A DNA stretch of 25,366 bases from a virus, in IMG/VR virus record IMGVR_UViG_3300028233_000199, positions 1-25,366 of that record; one strand, written 5' to 3'. A program made the translations under genes and the position numbers. The notes beneath the pieces are model-generated. The model searched no databases and had not been told where the DNA came from. It worked only from the letters and a program-made list of their open reading frames with translations. How positions within the stretch are numbered: the first letter of the stretch is position 1; each line of letters starts with the position of its first letter. Shown here in pieces: positions 18,286-25,366 of the stretch.

Positions 18286-18293
18286 TATAAATA
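18286..18293 (+). promoter_or_regulatory. T4-type late promoter TATAAATA
   Basis: An exact TATAAATA directly after the stop of the 461-residue protein. The first ATG (18299) is five bases past the box, the same spacing as at 545-558. Confidence 0.7.
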
Positions 18294-18304
18294 GGAATAT
18301 GCAT

Positions 18305-18601
18305 ATGAAAACATTTAAGGAACACGTAATCGAAAAGGAGCAAGAACTTGAAGAAGGTTATGCAATCGATCTAACACCTTGGCAATTCTCACATCGAGGA
18401 CGACAACCCAAGGGTAAAGGAACATGGGCATTTAATTATAAAGCATCTTTAGATTCTGGTGGAATGATTGGAATGCAACAAGATACATTCTTTTCAAAAG
18501 CAATGTCAACATATAAAGACGCCGTTAAACAATTGACTAAATTTCTAAAGAAAGAGTTGAAAGTAAAACCAAAACAAGTTGAAATTAAACTAGCTCCATA
18601 A
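18305..18601 (+). CDS. Short basic putative internal protein with capsid-targeting N terminus
   Basis: 98 residues from the ATG at 18305, which has AGGA eight bases upstream; an ATG at 18299 would add Met-His and would be leaderless from the promoter at 18286. The N terminus MKTFKEHVIEKEQELEEG is close to the T4 internal-protein capsid-targeting peptide (T4: MKTYQEFIAE). L15-E-E17 followed by Gly fits the (L/I)-x-E prohead-protease rule. The predicted mature part (18-98) is rich in Lys, Arg, Gln and aromatic residues, ending in a basic helix (K-F-L-K-K-E-L-K-V-K), as expected for a DNA-associated internal protein. Function after injection unknown. Confidence 0.7.
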   Translation: MKTFKEHVIEKEQELEEGYAIDLTPWQFSHRGRQPKGKGTWAFNYKASLDSGGMIGMQQDTFFSKAMSTYKDAVKQLTKFLKKELKVKPKQVEIKLAP

Positions 18602-19539
18602 TGATATCGTTTAAGGCATTCCTAGTTGAAACTAAAATATCGCCAACATTCATTACTCATATTGAGACAATGAAACCAATCGATTTTCTGTCTCTCATTA
18701 AGGAGTTAGAATCTGAATATAAGGGCGTTCTTAAATTAAAGGATATATCTATTACTGAAAAGATTGATGGTAGCTCTCTTACGATTGGTCAAGATTCTAA
18801 AGGCAAGACATTTATTAATACTAAAATGTCTCAGCGGTATTTTAAGCCTGGCGATTTTACATCCTTTGCAACTTCTAAGGGTTATGATAACAGTATTAGC
18901 ATTAATTTTGATAATATACTAAAAGAAGTGCAGAATGATAAAAAGCTGCAGAGTGTACTTTCTAAATATAATACCGGAAATGGTATCGTTATTACTGGAG
19001 AGGTGCTTTATGTGCCACTTGCATCTGAGGCTAAGAATAACAAACTCCAATTTATTTTTATGGATTACGATAAAAAGAATTTAGGGGAAGAATGGACATT
19101 TGTACCATTCGATGTTCAAGACTTCGACGGAAACCCTATCGAAAATAAGGAAGAGATATTCAAAGCTTTATATAAGATTTCGACTAAGGCGCGTAAGTAC
19201 ACCAGTGCAAATTTAAAGATTGATTCTGATATAGATATCACGTTAAGCATTGATAAGGTTAAAAAGAATATTCTCTCTAAGTATGATAATATCGATGCAG
19301 CATTAGTGTCACGAAAAAAGATAGATAAACCTCTCAAAGATAAACTTAAACAAGAGATTGCTAAATACCAAACAGAGCTTTCAAATAAAATACTATCATA
19401 TGTAAGAGCTGGAAAGTTTGGAGATGATTTCGAAGGCATCGTTCTTAAAACAAAATCAGGTACTACACTAAAGGCCACTTCATCTAGATTTAAAGATCGC
19501 AGAGCAAAACTAAAAGATATAAAATTTAAAAAGAAATGA
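18601..19539 (+). CDS. KxDG-type nucleotidyltransferase (RNA/DNA ligase-like) with capsid-targeting N terminus
   Basis: 312 residues. Ligase motifs are visible: motif I E53-K54-I-D-G57-S-S with K54 the AMP-accepting lysine; motif III-like T-G133-E134-V-L-Y; motif IIIa-like L-Q-F-I-F-M-D-Y; motif IV F-E278-G-I-V-L-K283; and motif V around L290-K291. These catalyse adenylation of the enzyme and transfer of AMP to a 5' phosphate end. The size is near T4 Rnl2 (334), but RNA or DNA preference is unclear. The first ten residues, MISFKAFLVE, align position by position with T4's MKTYQEFIAE, with E10 at the known T4 cut position, so the enzyme may be packaged in the capsid and trimmed. Starts with TAATG overlap. 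Confidence 0.72.
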   Translation: MISFKAFLVETKISPTFITHIETMKPIDFLSLIKELESEYKGVLKLKDISITEKIDGSSLTIGQDSKGKTFINTKMSQRYFKPGDFTSFATSKGYDNSISINFDNILKEVQNDKKLQSVLSKYNTGNGIVITGEVLYVPLASEAKNNKLQFIFMDYDKKNLGEEWTFVPFDVQDFDGNPIENKEEIFKALYKISTKARKYTSANLKIDSDIDITLSIDKVKKNILSKYDNIDAALVSRKKIDKPLKDKLKQEIAKYQTELSNKILSYVRAGKFGDDFEGIVLKTKSGTTLKATSSRFKDRRAKLKDIKFKKK

Positions 19540-20429
19540 TAAACTTTAAACAATTTATACAAATCAATGAAGGCGGAAATGCTGTCGAAGGAGTTGTTGG
19601 TATCAACCAAGAAAACTCGATTGCCACTGTAAAATCTGTATTTAAAGATTATTTAAAGCTTCTTGGTCTTAGCGAAAAAGATACTGCATTGCTAGGTTCT
19701 ACTGGAAAGAAAGCTCCTAAAGCAGTTTCAGGAGATATTGATATTGCTCTTTCTTCTCGAGAATTACTTAAGCATAAGAACGTATCTACATTTGGTGACA
19801 TGATAGACCTTATCATTAACATCACAAAGAAAAAGGGATATAAATTTAGAGATCTGCGAACTATTGGCATTGTTTCGGTTGGGTATCCAATTACAAATGT
19901 AGATGGTAAACAAGAAGGTGAAACTGTACAACTTGATTTCATGCTCGTTGATAATGTTAAGCTCGCTTCTTGGTCTTATTATTCTCCTTCATATCTTGAA
20001 TCAAGCCTAAAGGGATTATACCGAAACGAATTGTTTTACGCTGTTGCTAAGTTTGCTGGATTGAAAGTAAAGGAAATGTCAAACGATAAGACACCTATTA
20101 CTTGGGACCGTTTTTGGTTCGATTTATCGAGCGGCTTACAAAAAGGAACTCAAACTCTAAAATCTCCTAAAACTGGAAAAGTTACTAAGAGCGCCAAGAA
20201 AGTAAAACCAGCAGAAATTTTAAGTGATGATCCTGACACAATTGTTAAGTATCTCTTTGGAGATAAATATAAGGCTAATCAACTGTTAACTTTTGAGCAA
20301 GCTTTAAAAGCAGTACAATCATCTTCTTTCCCGCATAAGAAATATCGCAAAGACATCTATAAGATGGCTAAAGAAGGTCTCCTAAAAAAGAAATATCCAG
20401 TGCCAGAGTCGTTAGATAGATTGGCGTAA
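19536..20429 (+). CDS. Pol-beta superfamily nucleotidyltransferase with capsid-targeting N terminus
   Basis: 297 residues. The catalytic pattern is complete: G54-S55, D67-I-D69-I-A in S-G-D-I-D-I-A-L-S, and the third carboxylate D134 in V-Q-L-D-F-M-L-V. This is the minimal nucleotidyltransferase fold of pol-beta, tRNA nucleotidyltransferases and aminoglycoside-type enzymes. A helical segment follows (E-L-F-Y-A-V-A-K-F-A-G-L), and the last 90 residues are Lys-rich. The N terminus MINFKQFIQINEG fits a capsid-targeting peptide with an I10-N-E12/Gly cleavage site. It overlaps the ligase-like gene by 4 bases (ATGA), and the two may form an end-healing/sealing pair. Substrate (RNA 3' end, nucleotide, protein) is unknown. 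Confidence 0.72.
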   Translation: MINFKQFIQINEGGNAVEGVVGINQENSIATVKSVFKDYLKLLGLSEKDTALLGSTGKKAPKAVSGDIDIALSSRELLKHKNVSTFGDMIDLIINITKKKGYKFRDLRTIGIVSVGYPITNVDGKQEGETVQLDFMLVDNVKLASWSYYSPSYLESSLKGLYRNELFYAVAKFAGLKVKEMSNDKTPITWDRFWFDLSSGLQKGTQTLKSPKTGKVTKSAKKVKPAEILSDDPDTIVKYLFGDKYKANQLLTFEQALKAVQSSSFPHKKYRKDIYKMAKEGLLKKKYPVPESLDRLA

Positions 20430-20434
20430 TTGTG

Positions 20435-20463
20435 TTTACAAATCGTATAAATATAAGTATAAT
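20435..20463 (+). promoter_or_regulatory. Sigma70-type promoter overlapping a late promoter
   Basis: TTTACA at 20435-20440, a 17-base spacer and TATAAT at 20458-20463. The spacer contains an exact TATAAATA at 20446-20453. A leader of about 10 bases runs to the ATG at 20479. Confidence 0.65.
20446..20453 (+). promoter_or_regulatory. T4-type late promoter TATAAATA inside the sigma70 spacer
   Basis: An exact late box within the spacer of the promoter at 20435-20463, 25 bases before the ATG at 20479. Confidence 0.6.
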
Positions 20464-20478
20464 TAACTTCTTATAAAA

Positions 20479-20673
20479 ATGAAATCAGAAAATAGCAACA
20501 TGAATAAATTACCAGAGAAAGTTTTAAACTTTAAAGATTTTTTAGTGGTAGACTATACTCAACAAGCTGGCGCTGATATCGATCCCGATGGTATGTTAGC
20601 ATATAAAACCGCTAAAAGAAAGAAATTGCATTCAGGCGGTGGACCATCAGAATCAACCGTAAAGAAAAAATAG
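20479..20673 (+). CDS. Very small putative internal protein
   Basis: 64 residues; the eighth codon is also ATG and could be the true start. It contains V-L-N-F-K-D-F-L-V-V-D-Y, the same FKxFL core as its neighbours but placed deeper and without the Glu of the cleavage rule. The C terminus is basic and Gly/Ser-rich (A-K-R-K-K-L-H-S-G-G-G-P-S). No domain known. It is the only gene in the window under the combined early/late promoter, and it ends one base before the next gene. Confidence 0.55.
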   Translation: MKSENSNMNKLPEKVLNFKDFLVVDYTQQAGADIDPDGMLAYKTAKRKKLHSGGGPSESTVKKK

Positions 20674-20674
20674 T

Positions 20675-22981
20675 ATGTTTGTAAAAGGATTTAAACAGTT
20701 CAACGAGGAAAAGACTAAAGCGGTAACATTTACCTATGGGAGATTTAATCCTCCGACTATTGGTCATGAGAAACTTATTCTTGAGGTAATCAAAGCTGCA
20801 CGTGGTGGCGATTATAAGATTTTCGTATCGCAGTCTAATAAGCCTAAGTCTGATCCTTTGCAGTATAAAGAAAAAGTTGGAATCATGCGTAAGATGTTTC
20901 CAAAGTATGCACGAAATATCATACTTGACGAAAAACTTAAAACTGTATTTGACATATGTGTATCGTTATATAATCAAGGATACACAGATTTAACAATGGT
21001 GGTTGGTTCAGATAGAATCAAAGAATTTAAAACTCTACTTCTTAAATACAACGGATCAAAGGCACGCCACGGATTCTACGAATTTGGTAATATTTCTTTT
21101 CAATCTGCTGGCGAGCGTGATCCTGATTCAGATGATGTTTCTGGAATGTCAGCCTCAAAAATGAGAGCAGCTGCTGTATCTGGTGATTTTCAATCTTTTG
21201 CAGACGGTCTTCCAAAATCCTTTGGTGATAAGCTATCGGTGTTTAACCTTCTTCGTAAAAGAATGGGATTGAAAGAAATGGTTAACTTTCGTAAACACGT
21301 ACAGCTTCCAACAGTTTCAGAAAAACGAGAAAGGTTTATCTCTGGTGAAATCTTCAATGTTGGAGATAGAGTTCAGTGCCAAAAGTCGAATCAAAATTTT
21401 ACAATAGCTGAGCGTTGCTCAAACTATGTTCTAAGCTCTATCGGTACTAAGTACTTTATTAATGATCTCGAAGAATATCTCGATGAGAATGTTAAGTACC
21501 ACGCCGGCCTATCTAAATCTACTAAAGATAAAAGAAAAGCACAGTTTAAAAAGCAGGCCAAAATGGATGATGATAATCCAGATGCATATAAGCCTGCACC
21601 CGGCGATGCACAAGCAAAGACGAAACCTTCCAAATATACCAAAAAATTTAAAGATATGTTTGGCGAAGAATCTCTTGAAGAAGGTGTAGATGATCCTGCA
21701 ATTTTTAAAGCAATCTTTCTTGCTGGCGGGCCAGGTTCTGGTAAATCGTTCACTGTTGGTAAAACTGGCCTCACAGCTCTTGGTTTCAAGGTTGTCAACT
21801 CAGATGATAAATTTGAAATTGCCTTAAAAAAGGCCGACCTTGAACCAACACCAAAAAATATCTATAGCCCAAAAGGACAAAAACTTCGGAGTAGATCAAA
21901 GGAATTAACAGCAAAGCAACAAGATCATTATATCAATGGACGTCTTGGTTTAGTTATTGATGGAACTGGTAAAGACTATGCTAAGATCAAGAAACAATCT
22001 GAACTACTTAAAACCATTGGATATGATATAGCGATGATTTTTGTTAATACTGATCTTGATACAGCACAGTTTCGTAATAATAAACGTTCAAGAAGTTTGC
22101 CAGATGATCAAGTAAAGAAAATGTGGCAAGAAGTTCAAAACAATCTTGGTAAATTCCAATCGATGTTTGGCTCTAATTTCGTTATTATTGATAATTCTGA
22201 TGGTTCGAATATTGAGAAAGCGACAACATCGGCTTATAAGAAAATGGCTAAGTTTGCTAAAGAAGCTCCTAAGAATAATATTGCAAGAAGTTGGATTAAG
22301 AAGCAACTTGGAGAAGAGACTGAGATACTGATCTCTGAAAATAAAAAAGGAATTCAAAATAAAGCTAAAGCTACTGGTATTTCATACTCGATTCTAAAGA
22401 AAGTATTCGACCGCGGAGTTGCAGCTTGGAGAACTGGTCATCGACCTGGAACTACTCCATCCCAATGGGGATTTGCACGAATTAATTCGTTTGCTACGGG
22501 TGGTAAGACTAGAACGACTGCTGATAAAGATCTTTGGGCCCAACATAAAGGAAAGAAAGAGTCTATTGAAGAATCAAAAGATTTCGAACCGCATTGGATG
22601 TATGATCCTAAAACCGGGAAAAAAGCATGGGCAAAGGTTAAAGCTGATCACGATAGATTAAATAAAAAGGGTTGGGTTCATGAGCCGGTCGAAGCTTTAG
22701 ATTACGGCACGTCTGCAACAACAAAAACATTTAAACAATATACTCCTGGTCAAAAGATTGAAGAAGGAGAAGGTAAGTATAAAGGTGAAACTTGGGAGCA
22801 GGGATACAAACGCAGAGTTGTTAAAACCTCTGACCCCGCTCACCTCGAAAAGGGTTATAAATGGCGGATAAAGGGAAAAGAACGCCCAGAAATTTCTATT
22901 AAGCTATATAAAGAAAAACCGGATTTTAAAGAATATAGCAAGCAAATGGAACGAGTGGCTGGTCATGAATTTGGAAAATAA
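20675..22981 (+). CDS. Giant fusion: nucleotide adenylyl/cytidylyltransferase + P-loop kinase + DUF5824-like, probable prohead polyprotein
   Basis: 768 residues. Region 16-200: HxGH-type nucleotidyltransferase (G22-R-F-N-P-P-T-I-G-H31; S159-A-S-K-M-R164 as the second phosphate-binding motif), as in NMN adenylyltransferases or cytidylyltransferases. Region 272-331: Lys-rich linker seen in T4-like virion proteins. Region 337-540: P-loop kinase, G351-G-P-G-S-G-K-S358, with a V-V-N-S-D-D segment resembling zeta-toxin/polynucleotide-kinase enzymes. Region about 556-628: a DUF5824-like block (A-A-W-R-T-G-H-R-P-G-T-T). Regions 634-697 and 698-768: two small domains. (L/I)-x-E sites at 334-336, 553-555, 631-633 and 695-697 fall at the domain borders. 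The N terminus has G-F-K-Q-F-N-E-E. Activities are motif-based; processing is inferred. Confidence 0.72.
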   Translation: MFVKGFKQFNEEKTKAVTFTYGRFNPPTIGHEKLILEVIKAARGGDYKIFVSQSNKPKSDPLQYKEKVGIMRKMFPKYARNIILDEKLKTVFDICVSLYNQGYTDLTMVVGSDRIKEFKTLLLKYNGSKARHGFYEFGNISFQSAGERDPDSDDVSGMSASKMRAAAVSGDFQSFADGLPKSFGDKLSVFNLLRKRMGLKEMVNFRKHVQLPTVSEKRERFISGEIFNVGDRVQCQKSNQNFTIAERCSNYVLSSIGTKYFINDLEEYLDENVKYHAGLSKSTKDKRKAQFKKQAKMDDDNPDAYKPAPGDAQAKTKPSKYTKKFKDMFGEESLEEGVDDPAIFKAIFLAGGPGSGKSFTVGKTGLTALGFKVVNSDDKFEIALKKADLEPTPKNIYSPKGQKLRSRSKELTAKQQDHYINGRLGLVIDGTGKDYAKIKKQSELLKTIGYDIAMIFVNTDLDTAQFRNNKRSRSLPDDQVKKMWQEVQNNLGKFQSMFGSNFVIIDNSDGSNIEKATTSAYKKMAKFAKEAPKNNIARSWIKKQLGEETEILISENKKGIQNKAKATGISYSILKKVFDRGVAAWRTGHRPGTTPSQWGFARINSFATGGKTRTTADKDLWAQHKGKKESIEESKDFEPHWMYDPKTGKKAWAKVKADHDRLNKKGWVHEPVEALDYGTSATTKTFKQYTPGQKIEEGEGKYKGETWEQGYKRRVVKTSDPAHLEKGYKWRIKGKERPEISIKLYKEKPDFKEYSKQMERVAGHEFGK

Positions 22982-23014: not shown

Positions 23015-23022
23015 TATAAATA
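23015..23022 (+). promoter_or_regulatory. T4-type late promoter TATAAATA
   Basis: An exact late box in the 74-base gap before the 637-residue protein. A TATAAT lies just upstream (23007-23012) without a good -35 partner. Confidence 0.68.
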
Positions 23023-23055: not shown

Positions 23056-24969
23056 ATGAATATAAAAGAACAAGAAATTATCGAGAAATTTATTTCTGAG
23101 GCATCAACCGCTGATTACGCAAAGCTTTCTACAAAAGAATTAAAAGATTTGTTAAGTATCTTCAAAAACGTTGGAAGATCAGCAGCAAAGCCAATATTGC
23201 GTTCTATTAGTGCAGAGCTTAATAGTCGCCTAAAAGAAAATTCCGAAGAGCTTGAAGAAGCTAAAGTAGTTCCATTTAAGAAGCTTGAACAAGCTTGGAC
23301 CAGAACAAACGGCGATAAAGCCAAACAAGCAAAGCTTATTAAAAAGCATGATTTAAAGAAGCTTATTTCCTCTGTCCGTCCTGGAGAAATTAAACTTGGC
23401 ATTAAAAATAAGCTATTAGGAACAACAAAGGCTGCAACTGCGGTTGGATTAGATTTAGATGATGAGTTGATTTTTATTACAAATAATCCTCTTAAAATCA
23501 TTTACCCTAAAAAGAGCACTCGTCGTCCTGAAGGAGAAGAGATTAAGGAATCAACAGTTGTAAAGGATGTTAAAACTCTTCGATTTGAAAAAATAGTATC
23601 CCTTACAATTAAAGAAGACTGCGAAGATATTATCGAATCTTTTATTAGTGAATCTAATCTTGAAGTTGATTCTACTCCAGCTCAAATCCGAACAGCATAT
23701 AAGACATATAGTCTTAGCGAATCAGCTGCCAATTTACGTAAGCTAAAAGAAGCTTCTGCTTCAGATATTAAAAAGGTCCTAGCGGCAGCGAAAAAGGCTG
23801 GTGGCACGGTTAAAGGAAATCAAATCGATTTTGGCATGGGTGCAGTAATCGATGTATCTATTGAAAAAGGTAAAATTAAGCTCGATGCTGGTTTATCTAA
23901 CGGAGTAGAATACTTTAAAAATGCTAAAGATGCCATCATGGCATTTGAATCAGTTGAACTTGAAGAAGCAGTCAAATGGTGGACAGTTACTATTACTAAG
24001 AAAACTGGTAAACTTTTTAAAGGACAAACGGTTGATGTGAAAGCAAGTAACTCTGCTCAAGCTATTAAGAAAGGTCTTAAGCAAATGAAGGCTGATCCAA
24101 TGACTGTACCAAGCGATAGTGTTGATGCAGTATTAGGAGAATCTGTCGAGCTTGAAGAAGCTAAAATACCAAGTTCTAATATATCTAAATTTTCAAGTCC
24201 TCAAGCAGCGAAGCGAGCAGCTTCAAAACAGAAATATAAAACTCAAATATTTATGGGTGATGATGGCTTGTTTTGGGTTCCTTCAACAAACAAAGAAGCA
24301 GGACAGTTGAAAAAAGATGGATATGAAGTATACGAATCAGCTGATCTTGAAGAAGCAATCAAAGTTAAGACTCATAAAGGCATGTTTTCTATGAAAAAGG
24401 GAGAAGAATCCCTAAGAAAGTGGGTTGATGGAATAGTGATCATGAGCGACGCTGTAAAGAAGAATCAACGCAAAACTGTTGCGCAGAATATTGTTAAAGC
24501 AATTGAATCTGGTAAGATTAAGAATGCTGATCTAACACAAGATCTCGGCGCTCTTATTGGTATTAAATCACCAAAAGGTATGGAAGCACCAGCTAATACA
24601 GTAAAAGCTAAATTAAAAGATCTTGGTTTGAATGAAGCTAAGAACGACACTCAGAAAGATATCGAATCATTGAAGAAAATGATCAAGAATCCTGATCCCA
24701 AGAGAGTTAAATCGTATGGTGGTACTAAATACGTTGATATGCTAAAGAGCAAATTGGCTAAGTTACAAGAATCAACTGAGCTTGAAGAAGCAAACAATAG
24801 ACTTGTAGCTCACAGTCCAGCTGCAGCCCAGAGACTCATTAAAAAACTCAAGAATAAATTTAGTGGATATTCGTGGGATCAACGAATTAAAGGCAATGAA
24901 GTCATTTATCCAATGGAGCCTCACATTATTAGATTCATTAAAAAACAACCAGAGGTCGCAACTATTTAA
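23056..24969 (+). CDS. Putative prohead-internal polyprotein with repeated ELEEA junctions
   Basis: 637 residues, Lys/Ala/Glu-rich, helical and without membrane segments. It begins with a capsid-targeting-like helix ending I13-S-E15-Ala. The same junction recurs: L66-E-E-A, L302-E-E-A, L366-E-E-A, L431-E-E-A and L576-E-E-A, each preceded by an acidic residue and mostly by E-S-x. Related sites are I197-S-E-S, L230-K-E-A and L525-N-E-A. They split the chain into small units, mostly 50-95 residues (305-368, 369-433, 434-527, 528-578, 579-637). The rule (L/I)-x-E then small residue is that of T4 gp21. Some units look like distinct small domains (W-W-T-V-T-I-T-K-K; F-W-V-P-S-T-N). No enzyme motif found. 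Scaffold or internal-protein role is inferred. Confidence 0.65.
   Translation: MNIKEQEIIEKFISEASTADYAKLSTKELKDLLSIFKNVGRSAAKPILRSISAELNSRLKENSEELEEAKVVPFKKLEQAWTRTNGDKAKQAKLIKKHDLKKLISSVRPGEIKLGIKNKLLGTTKAATAVGLDLDDELIFITNNPLKIIYPKKSTRRPEGEEIKESTVVKDVKTLRFEKIVSLTIKEDCEDIIESFISESNLEVDSTPAQIRTAYKTYSLSESAANLRKLKEASASDIKKVLAAAKKAGGTVKGNQIDFGMGAVIDVSIEKGKIKLDAGLSNGVEYFKNAKDAIMAFESVELEEAVKWWTVTITKKTGKLFKGQTVDVKASNSAQAIKKGLKQMKADPMTVPSDSVDAVLGESVELEEAKIPSSNISKFSSPQAAKRAASKQKYKTQIFMGDDGLFWVPSTNKEAGQLKKDGYEVYESADLEEAIKVKTHKGMFSMKKGEESLRKWVDGIVIMSDAVKKNQRKTVAQNIVKAIESGKIKNADLTQDLGALIGIKSPKGMEAPANTVKAKLKDLGLNEAKNDTQKDIESLKKMIKNPDPKRVKSYGGTKYVDMLKSKLAKLQESTELEEANNRLVAHSPAAAQRLIKKLKNKFSGYSWDQRIKGNEVIYPMEPHIIRFIKKQPEVATI
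23242..24797 (+). repeat. Interspersed short repeat encoding (E)S-x-(E/D)-L-E-E-A
   Basis: Five near-identical stretches with the core CTTGAAGAAGC lie at about 23242, 23947, 24139, 24334 and 24770, most preceded by GAATC. All are in frame and encode the same junction peptide between otherwise unrelated segments. Confidence 0.8.
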
Positions 24970-25331: not shown

Positions 25332-25366
25332 ATGAATTTAAATGACAAATTAACACAAGAATTGGC
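25332..25366 (+). CDS. Start of a gene cut by the window edge
   Basis: An ATG at 25332 opens a frame M-N-L-N-D-K-L-T-Q-E-L that stays open to the end of the window (11 codons). The tight spacing to the previous gene (28 bases) makes it likely to be real. Nothing can be said about its function. Confidence 0.4.
   Translation, partial: MNLNDKLTQEL

Follow-up and report, generated by a model that had tools for sequence, protein, structure and literature searches.

A shuffled modular protein of marine T4-like phages, predicted to be cut by the prohead protease at repeated ELEEA junctions

Main finding

A 637 aa protein encoded near the end of a marine-type virus fragment is built of small modules that are joined at repeated acidic sites and have been reshuffled among its relatives. 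We believe, with a probability of about 0.75, that it is a late, capsid-targeted polyprotein which the prohead protease would cut into 9-10 pieces. It is one case of a large, broad and apparently undescribed family in marine T4-like phages. We found no report of such a polyprotein architecture in the literature covered, which includes few preprints or subscription journals. A similar but simpler gene block is present in Melnitz, a cultured phage of OM43, and a term search of its genome paper gave no hit for virion proteomics, polyprotein or protease.

The window, by which we mean the whole stretch of 25,366 nucleotides analysed, is a 25 kb virus fragment in IMG/VR with no DNA match among deposited phages. 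Its DNA polymerase has its best relative in Phage C48C1 (Kyanoviridae), at 49% identity, with cyanophages next; the source is a marine-type, Kyanoviridae-related T4-like phage. Being a fragment, its contig includes neither gp21 nor gp23, and no head gene was recognised adjoining 23056-24969 in the window. The link to gp21 and gp23 is made through relatives with a DNA polymerase about 75% identical to the window phage's own (contigs L126 and L127; L and G numbers are our own labels), both of which carry the protease, a scaffold and the major capsid protein. Of this gene, only modules are found at the gp20-gp21 position, and these in relatives.

Table 1. Features of the window. The slash marks a predicted cut.
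Feature	Position	Strand	Remarks
Targeting-like neighbour	18305..18601	+	capsid-targeting-like start MKTFKEHVIEKEQELEE/G; late promoter at 18286
RNA-ligase-like protein	18601..19539	+	start MISFKAFLVE; Pfam RNA_ligase
Protein with start MINFKQFIQINE/G	19536..20429	+	from sequence
Cytidyltransferase / zeta-toxin-like kinase / DUF5824 fusion	20675..22981	+	targeting-like start; internal LEE/G and IEE/S; domain matches
T4-type late promoter match, TATAAATA	23015..23022	+	33 nt from its end to ATG; six distinct orthologs have it 32-33 nt upstream
Modular polyprotein gene	23056..24969	+	open ORF, 637 aa; relatives in IMG/VR
Putative N-terminal propeptide, residues 1-15	23056..23100	+	capsid-targeting-like, MNIKEQEIIEKFISE/A; seven distinct orthologs have [IL]-x-E-A, with S, N, A or D at P2
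Module 1, residues 16-68	23101..23259	+	helical; end LEE/A; pLDDT below 50 at 61-73
Module 2a, residues 69-165	23260..23550	+	end IKE/S; family E; comes after module 4 in L009
Module 2b, residues 166-232	23551..23751	+	end LKE/A; family C (mixed cluster); ortholog junction ELEEA or ELHEA
Module 3, residues 233-304	23752..23967	+	homology to C-terminal domain of prohead-core gene
Module 4, residues 305-368	23968..24159	+	VKWWTVTITKK; 22 copies; 18 left and 14 right neighbour labels
Module 5, residues 369-433	24160..24354	+	free-standing gene in ZQG1 and Lebethron; within prohead-core genes
Module 6, residues 434-527	24355..24636	+	end LNE/A; family W, four contexts
Module 7, residues 528-578	24637..24789	+	within prohead-core genes L126, L230, L232; pLDDT below 50 at about 574-580
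Module 8, residues 579-637	24790..24966	+	terminal in window gene, internal in L004
Second modular polyprotein, start only	25332..25366	+	clipped by window end; whole in L001 12277-13203, 308 aa

Junctions in the 637 aa protein

The initial annotation was built on the motif S-x-[DE]-LEEA, found five times with its leucine at 66, 302, 366, 431 and 576, and on the related motifs ISEA (13-16), ISES (197), LKEA (230) and LNEA (525), and all of these are indeed where it placed them. LEEA occurs 5 times in 637 aa against a shuffle mean of 0.031, and [LI]xE[AGS] 14 times against 1.9; in neither case did any of 20,000 shuffles reach the observed count. All other genes of the window, 7,561 aa together, contain no LEEA at all, and their rate of [LI]xE[AGS] equals 1.6 per 637 aa. 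The chain opens with a short putative propeptide ending ISE/A (13-16), the L/I-x-E/A ending of T4-type targeted internal proteins, and it holds several sites of the gp21 rule (L/I-x-E), as prohead-core-type proteins do. Several junctions are double, of the form [LV]xE/S-x-[DE]-LEE/A.

The set of junctions needed revision in two places. We reject 197, since ISES there ends a confidently predicted helix (190-199) and its glutamate is lost in orthologs, which have ISKS, VASS, VDSS or ISSA. A junction at 163-165 (GEEIKE/S), where relatives have IKE/A or IEE/A, had been overlooked. The segments, described as mostly 50-95 residues, are 51-97 aa, and 69-232 is probably two of them. What survives these corrections is the core idea of a capsid-internal polyprotein with gp21-type junctions, which draws on the shuffling, the core-gene modules, the capsid protein site, the pattern at P3, P1 and P1', the late promoter and predicted disorder.

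AlphaFold models were made of the two halves separately, with checked alignments, because a MAFFT alignment misplaced the shuffled modules; module 4, with too few rows, was left out. Mean pLDDT is 63.5 and 65.2, which is low to modest confidence. The models place predicted disorder (pLDDT below 50) at 61-73 and at about 574-580, two junctions that are among the best resolved.

Late promoter and targeting-like starts

The late promoter sequence has five matches on the + strand of the window (545, 16548, 18286, 20446 and 23015), all of them 13-41 nt before gene starts, and these probably mark late genes, that of the 558-1619 protein included. It precedes 39 of 70 modular ORFs as against 12.5% of other ORFs (P = 1e-16). 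By promoter match the 637 aa protein is predicted to be expressed late, as the targeted internal proteins of T4 are.

The neighbours in 18305-22981 open with M-x-x-FK-x-F/Y-like targeting sequences as well. The product of 20675-22981, 768 aa long, has a zeta-toxin/polynucleotide-kinase-like domain and an extra C-terminal domain. In L006 the domain that follows ESIEE/S in this neighbour is a separate protein behind MLNFKQYIAE/A, and the homology begins at the cut; therefore junction and targeting-propeptide site are interchangeable. Two domains, DUF5824 and EYxGKxVxLNKP, are likewise each part of a fusion in one phage and a protein of their own in a different one. The 768 aa neighbour, too, may be a polyprotein that is cut, here into enzymes.

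Modules are shuffled among relatives

A first scan of IMG/VR gave 15 relatives of the 637 aa protein, in which modules of 45-95 aa recur with their order, number and neighbours changed. Three further scans, with a stricter clustering that demands mutual coverage, brought this to 409 segments and 65 families of at least two; the earlier clustering had merged modules by chaining and was replaced. Family C mixes several modules even under mutual coverage and its context counts are unused. Module 4 is tandemly duplicated in L009 and L012, a different module is placed between modules 3 and 5 in L003, and module 1 is missing in L164, L166, L172, L250, L260 and L261, where a short leader ending TIELHE/A stands directly before module 2. 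Polyproteins of 902 aa (L004) and 880 aa (L011) occur, and neither these nor the second array have a match among deposited phages.

Of the internal ends of local alignments between family members, 44.6% lie no more than 5 aa from a junction, compared with a mean of 10.9% and a maximum of 20.7% in 500 nulls made by randomly shifting the junctions, a null that ignores shared ancestry among the proteins. Alignment starts cluster 0-12 aa before a junction, as would be expected if the common ESxELEE tail aligns too. Assembly artefact was considered as a source of the shuffling and rejected, since identical arrays are found in contigs of different metagenomes (L009, L010 and L012) and since Melnitz, an isolate, has a related block.

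The modules are not confined to these arrays. Module 5 (370-425) corresponds to a whole 70 aa gene in phage ZQG1 (39% identity) and to one of 64 aa in Lebethron (36%). A 364 aa modular protein containing array modules is encoded upstream of DNA polymerase (L042 4817-5911, L044 2004-3098), so modules reach a third location in the genome.

The prohead-core gene and the cut rule

The interval of T4 from gp20 to gp21, portal to head protease, is the place of the core proteins gp67 and gp68. The gene that relatives of the window phage have between portal and protease encodes, in its basic form, 134-143 aa: an N-terminal segment, a junction (VNE/A, INE/A, ITE/A or LEE/A) and a domain with homology to module 3. 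In other relatives the same gene reaches 207-407 aa through modules inserted at the junction, which are modules 5 and 7 in L126, L230 and L232, module 5 in L228, and modules 5 and 4 in L182. The protease matches the PHROG head maturation protease. Peptidase_S77 is found above its curated cut-off in the array-carrying contigs G042, G043, G044 and G050, and a protease of this type is present in Melnitz, C48C1 and G016 too; one Peptidase_S77 contig, of 105 kb, encodes a 783 aa modular protein.

T4 gp21 cleaves after L/I-x-E and cuts gp22, gp67 and gp68 each to several fragments (PMC9026906). In this phage group the predicted site of the major capsid protein follows the same rule, with [LM][NS]E/[AGT] at the expected position in 11 relatives. 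Among orthologous sites of the polyproteins and core genes, P3 is L, I or V, P1 is E in 26/26 and P1' is A in 26/26, while P2 varies (S, D, A, N, E, T). Old orthologous junctions have drifted to IDEA, LDEA, VNEA, INEA, ITEA and IAEA with P3, P1 and P1' preserved. The divergent sites keep only aliphatic-x-E/A, which is the T4 gp21 rule and one that the capsid protein site also fits.

Scaffold proteins (L126 11055-12455, - strand, and others) contain repeated [MV]EE/AKAKTEEE, a loose fit to the head-protease rule.

The core gene suggests another way to read the predicted cleavage, in which it serves the scaffold only: the protein would be of the gp67/gp68 core type, its fragments helping to form the prohead before they exit from it, the modules being filler and not cargo. 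In relatives a gene between gp20 and gp21 does contain modules 4, 5 and 7 as well as module 3 homologs, and the fragments of T4 gp22, gp67 and gp68 mostly exit the head (PMC9026906). However, module content varies freely among close relatives and the basic core gene has no extra modules, which would be odd for an essential scaffold. Other phage lineages have module 5 as a gene by itself, and the neighbours with targeting-like starts are enzymes. We therefore regard scaffold-only processing as unlikely.

Junction DNA

The junctions are also very uniform as DNA. Across 152 junctions the leucine codon is CTT in 132, against 41% elsewhere, and the first glutamate codon is GAA in 151, against 81% elsewhere; the junction DNA CTTGAAGAAGC is nearly invariant. 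The last 35 bases of the window are the first 35 of a second array. That array has a stretch of 65 bp, 97% identical, in common with the final part of module 5 and its junction. Codons this uniform, together with the shared 65 bp, indicate that junction DNA has spread recently, and it probably serves as a recombination handle.

A conserved DKDIDNDGDVDSSDEYLH domain that resembles a calcium loop stands at the start of second arrays (L001 12277-13203, L002 9092-10081, L004 13070-13933); C48C1 has it as well, and there are weak matches in cyanophages.

It is important to realize that recent spread of junction DNA explains part of the repeat without any selection for cleavage, although it is still compatible with cleavage. 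Because the junction DNA itself spreads, the copies of the site in a single protein do not count as independent evidence of cleavage, and the argument from sequence has to be made from the pattern of drift at old sites and the core-gene context. The DNA data could also be read to mean that the protein is an uncut multidomain chain, with ELEEA as a flexible acidic linker whose DNA supplies short homology for recombination of modules and no protease involved. Both the near invariance of the junction and the 65 bp common to the two arrays of one phage are what this predicts. It does not account for old junctions that drift and yet preserve exactly P3, P1 and P1', for junctions interchangeable with capsid-targeting cut sites, or for a capsid protein site that obeys the same rule, and we consider it improbable. 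The idea that ELEEA repeats are docking peptides, by which an uncut internal organiser binds shell or scaffold, has in its favour an acidic, repeated motif and the [MV]EE/A stretches of scaffold proteins, but it leaves unexplained both a strict P1/P1' with free P2 and the boundaries between independent modules, and is very improbable.

Comparison with known systems

T4 internal proteins counter host restriction and each is delivered by its own gene. They are a diverse defence-countering set with only the targeting sequence in common (PMC3012670), and they are the model for the function we propose. The window protein resembles IPI, IPII, IPIII and Alt in its targeting-like propeptide ending L/I-x-E/A and in the hypervariable parts that follow, as well as in presumed packing into the prohead core and release by gp21. 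It differs in that each of those is encoded by a gene of its own, has a single propeptide (Alt a C-terminal one as well) and gives one mature protein, whereas here one propeptide precedes about nine modules in a chain. No family match to IPI-III or Alt was found, and tblastn gave no match to T4-type phages.

With gp22, gp67 and gp68 it shares several predicted L/I-x-E cuts per chain, and modules 4, 5 and 7 occur in a gene at the gp67/gp68 position. Those proteins are described as scaffold yielding small peptides, whereas here the predicted pieces are domains that differ from one another and are shuffled independently, and one of them is found elsewhere as a gene by itself. The nearest published idea is that of the polyvalent proteins, known from phages and conjugative elements, with other domains and embedded peptidases (PMC5512222). 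P1 DarB/DdrB and the N4 virion RNAP are likewise long multidomain chains with variable domains, some of them packaged and processed. In polyvalent proteins the enzymatic domains are large and known, and a peptidase is often embedded; the modules here are 51-97 aa, the junction is a predicted head-protease site, and Pfam and PHROG find neither a peptidase nor a large enzymatic domain in the 637 aa protein. The ejection proteins of phiKZ and SPN3US are head proteins too, and a gp21-like protease cuts them behind a short motif whose last residue is Glu, but they are separate genes, and shuffled module arrays are not described for them in the literature covered.

Proposed role of the modules

We picture the process as follows. 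The N terminus, MNIKEQEIIEKFISE, would act as a capsid-targeting propeptide that carries the whole chain into the prohead core, where a gp21-type prohead protease would cut after L/I-x-E and free the propeptide and about nine folded modules within the head. Arrays would diversify at their junctions by gain, loss and swap of modules, with CTTGAAGAAGC as the short homology handle. At least some of the freed modules would probably be delivered with the DNA and act early, perhaps against host defences, as T4 internal proteins do. The reshuffled modules of relatives suggest a mix-and-match cargo that is packed in the head and cut there.

That the modules are delivered as injected effectors is plausible, at slightly less than even odds. 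The effector role is argued by analogy because family searches gave no module function: Pfam and PHROGs have nothing significant for the whole protein or for single modules, nor does a sequence search of solved structures, and the best PDB hits of the two low-confidence models in Foldseek have E about 0.8 and 1.5, with none under 0.001. We hold with similar reserve the full picture of an exchangeable cartridge in widespread marine T4-like phages, in which arrays and genomes would exchange dozens of small effector modules, each flanked by a cut site that doubles as a recombination handle. The modules would be packed in a single chain, cut in the head and injected as a mixture at equal copy number.

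If this picture is right, simple recombination would be enough to give a phage a new injected set, and a single targeting signal would load many different proteins in set proportions. There would then be a sequence rule for finding many candidate injected proteins among those now called hypothetical in abundant marine phages. The role of hypervariable head-internal proteins in marine T4-like phages, a long-standing question, would become directly testable in a cultured phage. Relatives of module 5 are short stand-alone genes in Pseudomonas phages (L134 3977-4189, L135 3980-4174), and these could reveal what this module does.
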